Shown piece after piece: positions 23,984 to 28,173 of a DNA stretch of 64,000 nt (position 1 is its first letter; every line of letters begins with the position of its first letter). Under the pieces are notes generated by a model, which saw only the letters and a program-made list of their open reading frames with translations, made no database searches and was not told where the DNA came from. Where the stretch lies: positions 310,001-374,000 of the forward strand of contig NZ_CP042909.1 in NCBI RefSeq assembly GCF_012317585.1, read 5' to 3'. The stretch is from Thermosulfurimonas marina. GTDB lineage: Bacteria > Desulfobacterota > Thermodesulfobacteria > Thermodesulfobacteriales > Thermodesulfobacteriaceae. Made by a program: the position numbers and the translations under genes.

Positions 23984-25228
23984 ATGAAAATAGCCCTTCT
24001 TCCCCTGCGAGTAGTCCCCGGAAAGATCTCTCAGAATCTCCAAGGCCTCAAAGATCTCCTTTCCCGGACTTCGGTCGACCTTTCCGTGGCCCCGGAGCTG
24101 AGTCTCACCGGATACGCCCCCCCGGAGGAAGGACCAGGTCTTGAAGCCCTTTCCCAGGTGGAATCCCTGGTCCGAGAAAGAGAAACCGGCCTCCTTCTGG
24201 GACATCCGGTCTTTGAAGGAGAGGGGCTTACCAATGGGGCCTGGCTTTTAACGCCCCGGGAAAAAAGATTAGTGGCCGAAAAGGAAGCCCTCTTTCCCGG
24301 GCTTGATGCGGAGTGTGGTTTTAGCCCCGGAAGGCGGCGGGAGATCTTTGAGCTGGGGGAAGGTCTTTGGGGCGGGGTGCTGCTGTGTTACGAGATCCGC
24401 TTTCCGGAGTTTGCTCGAAGGCTTGTGTCTCGGGGAGCCAACGTGATCTTTGTCCTGGCCCAGTGGCCTGCGGCCCGGAGGGCCCACCTTCGGGCCCTGG
24501 CCCGGGCCCGAGCCCTCGAAAACCAGGTCTTCGTATTGGTGGCAGGGGCCTCCGGGGAGGCCCAAGGGATTCCTCTTTCCGGGGTGGCTCTGGCCTTCTC
24601 CCCCGAGGGAGAACTTCTGGGAGAAGTCCTGGATGAGGAAGCCCCTCTAGAAGTGGAACTTCGGCCGGAGGCCCTCTCTCAAGCCCGAAGACTTTTCAAT
24701 ACCTCGGTCTCTCCACCCCCCCTTCTTCCGGAAAGAAAGATCCTGCCGCTTCCGGAACTCCTCAACGAGGTGGCCCGTCGCCGGGCCCTGGGGCATCGTC
24801 TGGTTTTTACCAACGGCTGTTTTGATCTCCTGCATGCGGGACATGTGAGCTACCTTTACGAGGCCCGGGCTCAAGGAGACTTCCTGGTAGTGGGACTCAA
24901 CTCCGACGCTTCGGTCCGGCGCCTCAAAGGGCCCGAGCGTCCGGTAAACCCCGAAAATCACCGGGCCCTGGTCCTGGCCTCGCTTTCCTGCGTGGACTAT
25001 GTGGTCCTTTTCGAGGAGGATACCCCGGAGGCCCTCATTCGGGCCTTGAGACCCGAGGTCCTGGTCAAAGGGGAGGACTGGCCGGAAGAAAAGATTGTAG
25101 GGGCCGCCTGGGTAAAAAGCTACGGGGGAAAAGTGGTCCGCATTCCCTTCCGCTATCGGGTCTCTACCACCTTCCTTATCGAACGCCTGCGCCGGCCCGA
25201 AAAATATTTTAAGGAGGGACACCGGTGA
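23984..25228 (+). CDS. Nitrilase-superfamily domain fused to heptose-1-phosphate adenylyltransferase
   Basis: A 414-residue two-domain protein. Residues 1-~240 are a carbon-nitrogen hydrolase with the full triad Glu38 (VAPELSLTGY), Lys100 (AEKEALFPG) and Cys135 (LLCYEIRFPE); such enzymes hydrolyse amides. Residues ~265-410 match the HldE/RfaE adenylyltransferase domain, with VFTNGCFDLLHAGHVSYL (the HxGH nucleotidyl-transfer motif), VGLNSDASVRRLKGPERPVN and the final VSTTFLIERL. That domain would make ADP-heptose for the lipopolysaccharide core. The kinase half of HldE is absent. What an amidase does on this enzyme is unknown. The stop overlaps the GTG of the next gene. Confidence 0.87.
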   Translation: MKIALLPLRVVPGKISQNLQGLKDLLSRTSVDLSVAPELSLTGYAPPEEGPGLEALSQVESLVRERETGLLLGHPVFEGEGLTNGAWLLTPREKRLVAEKEALFPGLDAECGFSPGRRREIFELGEGLWGGVLLCYEIRFPEFARRLVSRGANVIFVLAQWPAARRAHLRALARARALENQVFVLVAGASGEAQGIPLSGVALAFSPEGELLGEVLDEEAPLEVELRPEALSQARRLFNTSVSPPPLLPERKILPLPELLNEVARRRALGHRLVFTNGCFDLLHAGHVSYLYEARAQGDFLVVGLNSDASVRRLKGPERPVNPENHRALVLASLSCVDYVVLFEEDTPEALIRALRPEVLVKGEDWPEEKIVGAAWVKSYGGKVVRIPFRYRVSTTFLIERLRRPEKYFKEGHR

Positions 25229-25887
25229 GACTTTCCTATCAGGAAGTTCTGGCCAAAATCCGAAATATGGAAGACCTTTCTGGAGGCGATCTTTCGGGCT
25301 TTAAGTTAGAAAACTTCAATTTGAGCCTTTTAAAACTTCGGGGGGTAAATTTTTCGGGGGCCCATCTCTACGGGGTCAATTTTGCGGGAGCCGATCTGGA
25401 AGGGGCTAATTTTGAAGGGGCCTATGTGGCGGTCACCAATTTTCTGGGGGCCAATCTTCGGGGAGCCATCTTTCGTAAGGCCGACCTGGGAAACGCCTCT
25501 CTCAAGGGGGCTCAGCTATCCGGAGCCGATCTTCGGGAAGCGGATCTCGCGGCCGGGGACCTCAGTCTGGCCAACTTCCAGGGGGCGGATCTGCGGAAAG
25601 CCCGGATTGAGGCCGTAGACGGACAGCTAGCCAATTTTGAAGGGGCTAACCTAGAAGAAGCTAACCTCCGGGGAAGTAGCTTCCAACTGGCCAATTTCAA
25701 CCGGGCCATTTTGCGTAAGGCCAACCTTATCCAGACCGACCTTACCGGAGCCCAGTTAAGAGAGGCCGACCTTACACAGGCCGACCTCATCGAAGCCTAT
25801 CTCAGAGGGGCGGATTTTAGAGGAAGCAACCTCGAAGGCGCCCGCTTTAGAGACGCCTTTTTCGAAAAAACCCTAGGCCTGCCTTAA
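25225..25887 (+). CDS. Pentapeptide-repeat protein
   Basis: A 220-residue protein built almost wholly of A(D/N)LxxA-type pentapeptides from about residue 20 to 210 (for example ADLEGANFEGAYV, ANLRGAIFRKADLGNASL), which fold as a right-handed quadrilateral beta helix. There is no signal peptide or membrane segment, so it is probably cytoplasmic. Roles in this fold range from gyrase protection to unknown; nothing here decides. Start is GTG, preceded by AAGGAGGG and overlapping the previous stop. It ends convergent with iorB with a 4-bp overlap. Confidence 0.9.
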   Translation: MRLSYQEVLAKIRNMEDLSGGDLSGFKLENFNLSLLKLRGVNFSGAHLYGVNFAGADLEGANFEGAYVAVTNFLGANLRGAIFRKADLGNASLKGAQLSGADLREADLAAGDLSLANFQGADLRKARIEAVDGQLANFEGANLEEANLRGSSFQLANFNRAILRKANLIQTDLTGAQLREADLTQADLIEAYLRGADFRGSNLEGARFRDAFFEKTLGLP

Positions 25888-26480
25888 CGGCCGGCCACCG
25901 CCTCAAAACCCAGTTCAAAGGCCCGCAAATTGAGGTCAAGGTAGGCCGGTTTCACCACCGCCTTCAAGGCCTCAAGCAGGGTCTGCCGGGAGAGGGGAAG
26001 AAGCTCCGTGGCTGCAAGGGCTCCGAGCATGACCACATTCAAGGCCCGGGAAGATCCGGCCTCGCGAGCCAGCTTTTCCCCGGAAAGGAGATAGACCCGG
26101 GGAAGGGCCTTTTTAAGTCGTTCAAGGAGGTGCGGAAGTTCCGGATAGGTGGCCAAACCATCCTTGACGATTTGGGGGAAGACCGGATTAGTGCTCACCA
26201 CCGCCGTGGCCTCCCGCCGGCAACGCCCCAAGGCCCGTAAGGCCTCCACCGGCTCGAGGGCCACCAGGATGTCGGCCTCCCCTTCGGAAATGTAGGGACT
26301 CTTTACCGCCCCCAGAACGATGTTGGTTTCCACCACCCCACCCCGCTGGGCCATCCCATGGACCTCGCTCATGGCCACGGGTAGACCCTCCCGGAGAGCG
26401 GCCTCGCCCAGGACTCGACTGAAAAGAAGAATTCCCTGACCACCTACACCCACGGCAAGAATCCGGTACCCTTCCGCCAT
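25884..26480 (-). CDS. iorB: Indolepyruvate:ferredoxin oxidoreductase beta subunit
   Basis: A 198-residue gamma-type 2-oxoacid oxidoreductase domain: ILAVGVGGQGILLFSRVLGEA (residues 6-26) and SEVHGMAQRGGVVETNIVLG (~37-56) are signatures of IorB. With IorA it oxidises aryl-pyruvates from aromatic amino acids to aryl-acetyl-CoA and reduces ferredoxin. It lies 10 bp downstream of iorA with its own GGAGG. Confidence 0.93.
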   Translation of the reverse strand: MAEGYRILAVGVGGQGILLFSRVLGEAALREGLPVAMSEVHGMAQRGGVVETNIVLGAVKSPYISEGEADILVALEPVEALRALGRCRREATAVVSTNPVFPQIVKDGLATYPELPHLLERLKKALPRVYLLSGEKLAREAGSSRALNVVMLGALAATELLPLSRQTLLEALKAVVKPAYLDLNLRAFELGFEAVAGR

Positions 26481-26490
26481 CGCCGGCCTC

Positions 26491-28173
26491 CTATTTCTTG
26501 AACTTGGCCCGATAAAGCACGCACGGGGCCTTGGCCACGATCACCGCAAGTTTCTTTGAAGAAAGGACGGGTCTTACCGCCTCCTTGGCCTCTGTCTTCT
26601 TGTAAGGGTTGATCTCCACGGCCGGGATCCCCAGGGATTCACAGAGGCGGGCGATGGAGATCACCGGCCGGTCTTTCAGGACTTCGGGGCGCAATTCCTG
26701 CGAGGGCACAGGCTGGTGCCCGGTCATGGCCGTGGTCTCGTTGTCCAGGACCACCAGAGTAAAGTGGTGTCCCTGATAGAGGGCATTTATGAGAGGGGGG
26801 ATGCCGGCATGAAAGAAAGTGGAGTCCCCAATGAAAGAGACCAGGCGCTGATCCGTGGCTACCGAAAAGCCGCAAGCCGACCCCACGCTCGAGCCCATAC
26901 AGAGGAGGTAGTCGGCCATGCGCAAAGGAGGTAAAAGCCCCAGGGTGTAGCAGCCGATATCCGTGGGATAGACCGTATTTTCTTCCTCCCCCAACTCCTG
27001 AAGGACTTCTTTGACCACCTTGTAGGTTTCCCGGTGGGGACAGCCCGGACAGAGGGTAGGCGGACGCGGAGGCAGTTCCGGCACCCAGGAGGTGTCCGGG
27101 GCCTCCGGCGGCTGCCAGTCAAGCTCAAAGGCCCGGGCCAGGGCGGCCTTGACCATCCCGGGATGAAATTCGTGATAACGCGGAAAATATCCCTCGGCCT
27201 TGCCCAGGATCTTCACCGCAAGCCCGGCCTCCTGAGCGGTAACCTTGAGGGCCTCTTCCAAATAGGGCTCAAGTTCTTCTACCACCAGACACCTTTCCAG
27301 CCCGGAAAGGAACTCCCGGGCCAGGGCCTTGGGAAAGGGGTGGGTAAAGCCTAAGAAAAGGACCGAAACCTTTCCTTCAAGGCCCAGCTCCCTTAAAGCA
27401 TCTTCCACATAAAGCACCGAGACCCCGGAGGCCACCACCCCCAGGGGCCCGCCTTTAAGCATTCGATTGAAAGGAGAGCGGGCCGCCTCCTCTTCGGCCA
27501 GCCGGAGCTTCTCAAGAAGGATCTGATGGCGCTTACGGGCCACCGCGGGCACCGGAATCCAGCGCCCGGGGTCCTTTTCAAAACGCCCTTTGGGAAAGGC
27601 ACGGTAGTCGGCCAGCCTTCCGCAGGCGACCACCCCCCGGGCGTGGGAGACCCGGGTGGTGGTGCGCAGGAGGACCGGGACCTCCAGTCTTTCGGAAAGT
27701 TCAAAGGCGTAGGCGGTATACTGGCGGGCCTCTTCCGGGGTGGCCGGCTCGAGCATGGGGAGTCCGGAAAGTCGGGCATAATAGCGATTGTCCTGCTCGT
27801 TCTGGCTGGAATGACAGGAGGGATCGTCCGCGGTCACCACCACCATCCCCCCTTTCACCCCCACATAGGCCAAGGTAAGAAAGGGATCGGCGGCCACATT
27901 AAGGCCCACATGTTTCATACAGGTGAGGGAACGCAGACCACAGGCCGCCGCCGCGGCAGCCACCTCCATAGCCACCTTTTCATTTACCGAAAATTCAAAG
28001 TAAAGACCCGGGAGCTCCTGGGAGAGAGCAAAGAGGTTGTTTCCGATCTCTGAGGAAGGGGTTCCGGGATAGGCCGCCCCCACCCGCAGACCCGCCTCCA
28101 GGGCCCCGCGCACAATGGCCTCGTTTCCCAGAAGGAGCCTCCGCTCGCCTTCTGCCGCCAGAAGAGGGTGCAT
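26491..28173 (-). CDS. iorA: Indolepyruvate:ferredoxin oxidoreductase alpha subunit, lacking the ferredoxin domain
   Basis: A 560-residue protein. Residues ~10-190 form the pyrimidine-binding domain (GNEAIVRGALEAGLRVGAAY, PGTPSSEIG). Residues ~370-545 are the thiamine-diphosphate domain (LCPGCPHRETY, GDSTFFHAGIPPLINALYQ, LDNETTAMTGHQPVPS). It stops at VIVAKAPCVLYRAKFKK. Known IorA proteins continue here into a C-terminal domain with two 4Fe-4S clusters; that part is missing, and the stop is followed by the iorB ribosome site, so the loss is not a frameshift seen here. Electron exit must therefore differ. AAGGAGG precedes the ATG. Confidence 0.93.
   Translation of the reverse strand: MHPLLAAEGERRLLLGNEAIVRGALEAGLRVGAAYPGTPSSEIGNNLFALSQELPGLYFEFSVNEKVAMEVAAAAAACGLRSLTCMKHVGLNVAADPFLTLAYVGVKGGMVVVTADDPSCHSSQNEQDNRYYARLSGLPMLEPATPEEARQYTAYAFELSERLEVPVLLRTTTRVSHARGVVACGRLADYRAFPKGRFEKDPGRWIPVPAVARKRHQILLEKLRLAEEEAARSPFNRMLKGGPLGVVASGVSVLYVEDALRELGLEGKVSVLFLGFTHPFPKALAREFLSGLERCLVVEELEPYLEEALKVTAQEAGLAVKILGKAEGYFPRYHEFHPGMVKAALARAFELDWQPPEAPDTSWVPELPPRPPTLCPGCPHRETYKVVKEVLQELGEEENTVYPTDIGCYTLGLLPPLRMADYLLCMGSSVGSACGFSVATDQRLVSFIGDSTFFHAGIPPLINALYQGHHFTLVVLDNETTAMTGHQPVPSQELRPEVLKDRPVISIARLCESLGIPAVEINPYKKTEAKEAVRPVLSSKKLAVIVAKAPCVLYRAKFKK

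Follow-up and report, generated by a model that had tools for sequence, protein, structure and literature searches.

The window analysed here, a stretch of 64,000 nucleotides from Thermosulfurimonas marina (NZ_CP042909.1, positions 310,001 to 374,000), carries on its minus strand an iorA gene with an ATG start (26491..28173) and, directly downstream after a gap of 10 nt, iorB (25884..26480, minus strand). IorA comprises 560 residues with a POR_N-type and TPP-binding core and lacks the C-terminal 2[4Fe-4S] domain. Its residues 11-557 match positions 2-537 of the 595 positions of the TIGR03336 IOR_alpha model with 674.9 bits, above the curated equivalog cut-off of 650.9; about 58 positions at the end of the model, including the 2[4Fe-4S] domain, are missing from the product. 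POR_N and TPP_enzyme_C are the only Pfam domains in IorA, but this alone is weak evidence, because in a long relative (L092) Pfam likewise misses the ferredoxin domain. The last cysteine of the protein is residue 551. An AGGAGG ribosome-binding site of iorB (26487..26492, minus strand) overlaps the iorA stop codon (26491-26493); with iorB starting at 26480, this leaves no room for a hidden domain between the genes, so that the operon layout sets where IorA ends. Hence the initial annotation, which had described an iorA with a whole TPP core, without the C-terminal 4Fe-4S domain and followed at once by iorB, was right on each of these points. IorB (198 aa) contains a POR domain (E 3.3e-37), but its scores of 202.1 bits for IOR_beta (cut-off 205.8) and 221.1 for NF005323 (cut-off 238) are both below threshold. 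The genome, a single contig of 1,763,258 bases that is 99.96% complete, encodes a single IorA; the other matches in the IorA search belong to OFOR genes of PorA/KorA and KorB type. A transporter of the branched-chain amino acid ABC type lies divergent from iorA. Elsewhere in the window (23984-25228) we noted a carbon-nitrogen hydrolase fused with a cytidylyltransferase-like domain, and similar open reading frames occur near iorAB in two relatives (L036, L038).

When the position of the end was compared among 60 relatives, the match to the IorA model was found to stop at 538-545 in all five genomes of the same genus and in 11 of 11 genomes from two further families of the same order, one genome (G030) in the first and ten of ten in the second. 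The nearest named relative is the metagenome-assembled genome of Thermosulfurimonas dismutans, with 85% identity. Of 395 genomes sampled from the phylum and searched with a profile of the short form, 26 scored 875-1001 bits, after which the scores fell to 822 bits. These 26 genomes represent the lineage of the window's IorA, which we call clade A. Their C-termini were read in every case and are short in 26 of 26 (25 loci and the window's own), while the next four loci below them are all long. Each of the 26 holds one IorA at E 1e-140 or better, three candidates having been scored per genome. The iorB motif was found 26-62 nt past the iorA stop in the 25 loci read, and the C-terminal tails of clade A, with a median of 11 residues and a net charge of +4, are short and basic. 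The initial annotation had named a frameshift or assembly error at 26491 as the finding that would overturn it. Such an error, or a decaying gene, can be practically dismissed given the same end in many separate genomes, the intact core, the conserved ligands described below and the perfect iorB ribosome site over the stop. The short iorA is real and conserved, and no artefact. A literature search that covered few subscription journals yielded no description of an IorA without its C-terminal 2[4Fe-4S] domain.

Although both C-terminal clusters are gone, calculation from the alignments indicates that the ligand set for a third cluster is kept. The putative ligands of a proximal [4Fe-4S] cluster are Cys375 and Cys378 in a Cys-Pro-Gly-Cys motif (codons 27040..27051, minus strand), Cys408 (26950..26952, minus strand) and, as the fourth, Cys551 (26521..26523, minus strand), with IorA ending nine residues further on. 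Cys375, 378 and 408 are present in 143 of 143 aligned IorA sequences and Cys551 in 142 of 143, the exception being a gap; in a second set the counts are 152 of 152 and 151 of 152. When the IorA segment was aligned by hhalign with KorB from the same genome, all four cysteines fell in register (97.3% probability), and this KorB in turn aligns with Cys12, 15, 46 and 197 of the StOFOR chain 5b48_B (positions counted on the alignment). In the Sulfolobus OFOR study, the Cys12-Cys15 loop ligates the proximal cluster (PMC5020499). Given the intact set of the CxxC at 375/378, Cys408 and Cys551, we infer that the short IorA keeps the proximal cluster and has lost the medial and distal ones. The earlier statement that the internal clusters are lacking thus applies to the two clusters of the C-terminal domain and does not extend to the proximal one; that reading overlooked both the proximal cluster and the precedent for single-cluster enzymes. 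Cluster motifs vary in two further cases. In the clade A IorA of locus L200, PVC replaces PC at the fourth ligand, which shifts this ligand. Of the 87 long forms nearest to the query (for example L052 and L061), 75 have CxxHxxC rather than CxxCxxC as the first of the cluster motifs in their ferredoxin domain, so that a His ligand or a three-iron cluster is possible there.

A structure model of IorA, built without cofactor or partner, reached a pLDDT of 86.5, with residues 356-376, including Cys375, below 50. An earlier 11-row model that was poor around the cysteines (pLDDT 77.5) was set aside. The model matches OFORs with Z of 29.6-32.1 in the first 14 matches, 6n2n_A among them. Against the PFOR structure 1b0p it aligns over residues 8-557 with Z 30.8 and an rmsd of 16.7 over 480 residues, a value that makes the placement of the domains loose. 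The top Foldseek ranks were acetohydroxyacid synthases with an rmsd near 20; they reflect the common TPP fold and are no evidence of function.

Among known systems, the three-cluster IorAB of TIGR03336 shares the family score above the curated cut-off, the TPP core and the adjacent iorB with the window's pair; it differs by the 2[4Fe-4S] domain, and with a match that stops at 537 of 595 the window's IorA falls outside this type. Magnetococcus KorAB (6n2n), which we take to have a single cluster, resembles the pair as a two-subunit OFOR related to the KorB of the same genome and to the N-terminal part of the model, and differs in substrate and domain arrangement. The two-subunit enzymes StOFOR1 and StOFOR2 of Sulfolobus tokodaii (5b46-5b48) come close in another respect: both they and, as predicted here, the window's enzyme have one proximal [4Fe-4S] cluster, with four proximal cysteines and no domain V. 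The ligand spacings are 3, 31 and 151 in StOFOR and 3, 30 and 143 in IorA. However, StOFOR has domains III-I-II in alpha and VI in beta and belongs to another substrate class than IOR, whereas in the window's pair the TPP domains (TPP_enzyme_C) and the cluster domain lie in IorA and the POR domain (III) in IorB. The StOFOR layout is absent; by analogy IorAB would work like StOFOR, yet because of this difference it is no member of that type.

According to PMC5020499, the Sulfolobus two-subunit OFORs lack domain V, their only cluster is found close to the surface of a large pocket, and a dicluster ferredoxin serves them as an efficient acceptor. By this analogy, and by its sequence, we consider it likely that the window encodes a working single-cluster indolepyruvate (arylpyruvate):ferredoxin oxidoreductase with free ferredoxin as acceptor; cluster assembly, pocket, acceptor, substrate and reaction direction are predictions of this reading. 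IorA would hold the TPP site and the one proximal cluster, and IorB would provide the POR part of the domain III type. Loss of domain V would leave the proximal cluster near the floor of an open pocket, where a free soluble ferredoxin might dock and exchange electrons directly, as modelled for the Sulfolobus two-subunit enzymes.

The initial annotation had proposed a phylogeny of IorA with and without the domain. Trees were calculated from the IorA core alone, after the C-terminal domain had been trimmed away, and 16 rows at ≥97% identity were dropped before the first tree. A quick IQ-TREE analysis of 63 chosen rows places the short forms in two groups, each with 100% support, and two changes account for the whole tree. 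Clade A, with the window, has 23 rows; clade B has 6 rows, about 512-525 aa long, that belong to other genera in the same family. Constraining the two groups to be one lowers the log-likelihood by 58.6 units (p-AU 0.0054), so that a single origin of the two short lineages is rejected. The placement of clade B is less sure, because two long branches, clade B and the L150 group, meet in the tree, as a program warning pointed out. Without an assigned root, both two losses and one gain plus one loss are compatible with the tree. A FastTree analysis of 142 rows had given four changes, because loci L011 and L110 were still scored as short, and was superseded by the IQ-TREE result with two. Neither locus is a further short form: the frame of L011 continues past the ferredoxin domain and looked short by the cut at 700 in our analysis, and L110, at a contig end, is an artefact of the same cut. 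Locus L068, also at a contig end, was left out of the comparison. The L011 frame (genome G050) extends to 1105 aa, possibly as a fusion with IorB.

The two short lineages also share a change of surface, which we calculated from 44 clade A, 10 clade B and 98 long forms. Residue 382 (codon 27028..27030, minus strand) is the sole position with the same residue in both short groups and in none of the long forms: it is Glu in 53 of 54 short forms (43/44 and 10/10) and in 0 of 98 long ones, the exception being Ala in L210 of clade A. It lies four residues past Cys378 and adjoins the residue aligned with Phe18 of StOFOR2, which is placed at the modelled ferredoxin contact in PMC5020499. Position 526, Lys in the window (codon 26596..26598, minus strand), is hydrophobic in 98/98 long forms (V, L, I, Y, M or F) and polar in 54/54 short ones (K, R, T, Q or H). 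With the threshold at 80%, five positions, 382, 385, 520, 526 and 539, go from hydrophobic in the long forms to polar in both short lineages, while one, 529, shifts the opposite way. All five lie either in the helix that follows the CPGC loop or in the final stretch ahead of Cys551; the segments 379-394 and 507-551, which were set after the positions had been seen, hold 25 of the 204 eligible positions. For control, 28 pairs of long clades were treated alike. At the 80% level 20 pairs had no such column, five had one, and one pair each had two, three and six, so that eight of 28 have at least one; three of these 16 columns fall in the two segments. At the 90% level a hydrophobic-to-polar column appears in two of the 28 pairs, and seven of the 28 share a private residue. 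We interpret the polar pattern as the contact face that was left exposed without domain V and that would have turned to water in both lineages.

As a rival to the single-cluster reading, the ferredoxin domain might have split off, with a stand-alone 2[4Fe-4S] subunit encoded elsewhere binding permanently in the manner of PorD, OorD and HpdD. Delta subunits of this sort commonly form part of other OFORs (PMC13285125). HpdDEFG of Clostridium scatologenes, described in PMC13285125 as an arylpyruvate OFOR with a catalytic 4Fe-4S subunit, resembles the window's pair in this respect and differs from it by keeping the ferredoxin domain as the separate subunit HpdD. A profile of the lost domain made from 14 long tails (A3) and run against the own genome gave 21 matches, the best of which are PorD-like, a ferredoxin on the dsr side and larger Fe-S proteins, none of them specific. 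The candidates are a PorD-like protein (L167, E 5.5e-9), a VorD-like one (L183, E 5.0e-3) and a dicluster ferredoxin of 62 aa (L168, E 9.1e-8). However, L167 resembles PorD by sequence and L183 adjoins another OFOR. The L168 ferredoxin (L168:1489-1677, G000:C1:278482-278667), with Asp in place of its second Cys, was considered as a partner because it is 100% identical in five genomes of the genus, whose IorA is only about 85% identical to the window's. It adjoins genes that resemble dsrMKJOP as we read their sequences, and it also occurs in three relatives (G024, G028, G029) without an IorA match better than about 1e-20; we therefore rejected it as a dedicated partner. A stand-alone 2x4Fe-4S protein co-occurring with the short form, which the initial annotation had suggested looking for, was not found near iorA either: three of 24 clade A loci have an open reading frame with a four-Cys ferredoxin motif, each a different one (near-copies included), and no Fe-S neighbour is conserved. 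In the clade A neighbourhoods, and by the lost-domain profile in the own genome, we found no dedicated replacement Fe-S protein. Moreover, a former contact face that is polar in both short lineages speaks against a permanent, domain-like partner at that place. A split-off subunit hence seems unlikely to us.

The free ferredoxins of the own genome are of the one-cluster type (L176) and the dicluster type (L168); the latter may serve IorAB and is not tied to it. It is also possible that a dedicated electron carrier unlike the lost domain is encoded elsewhere. That another Fe-S protein or a different acceptor is needed, as had been claimed before, holds insofar as some other molecule has to supply the outer part of the electron path; a special acceptor is not required, since the single-cluster OFORs of Sulfolobus reduce free ferredoxin. 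Replacement of ferredoxin by a flavoprotein, NAD(P)+ or a membrane carrier appears still less probable than a split-off subunit. Loss of a ferredoxin-like domain could accompany such a change of acceptor, but no conserved redox gene adjoins iorAB in clade A, and the kept proximal cluster together with the StOFOR precedent (PMC5020499) would fit ferredoxin.

Outside the iorAB locus, the own genome has a PaaK beside an ACT-pair protein and another PaaK beside an aminotransferase of class I/II. In clade B, iorA is turned toward a run that consists of two PaaK and two ACT genes, and iorB ends the run where the fetched stretch reaches that far. This context fits arylacetate and aromatic amino acid metabolism, which might proceed in either direction. 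At the clade B loci L144-L149, L151, L152 and L154, iorA stands tail to tail with the PaaK/ACT genes and does not head an iorAB operon. A third PaaK-like stretch of the own genome (L166, G000:C1:449481-450695) is 35% identical to a clade B PaaK, with one TAA within the listing.

The bacteria concerned are thermophilic and often autotrophic sulfur bacteria. As a tentative hypothesis, for which we hold less confidence than for the single-cluster enzyme itself, single-cluster IORs might have arisen at least twice in the phylum by loss of domain V, the bared face might have been rebuilt alike for free ferredoxin (Glu382 and polar residues at 526, 385, 520 and 539), and catalysis may go mostly in the reductive, carboxylating direction. 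With the curated model, long and short forms would both be annotated simply as IorA. For OFOR enzymology the two forms would offer a natural before-and-after pair, which raises the question of what role a built-in ferredoxin domain has if close kin work without one. If the domain was lost twice independently, with the same polar changes close to the cluster that remains, the docking face would become testable by point changes.
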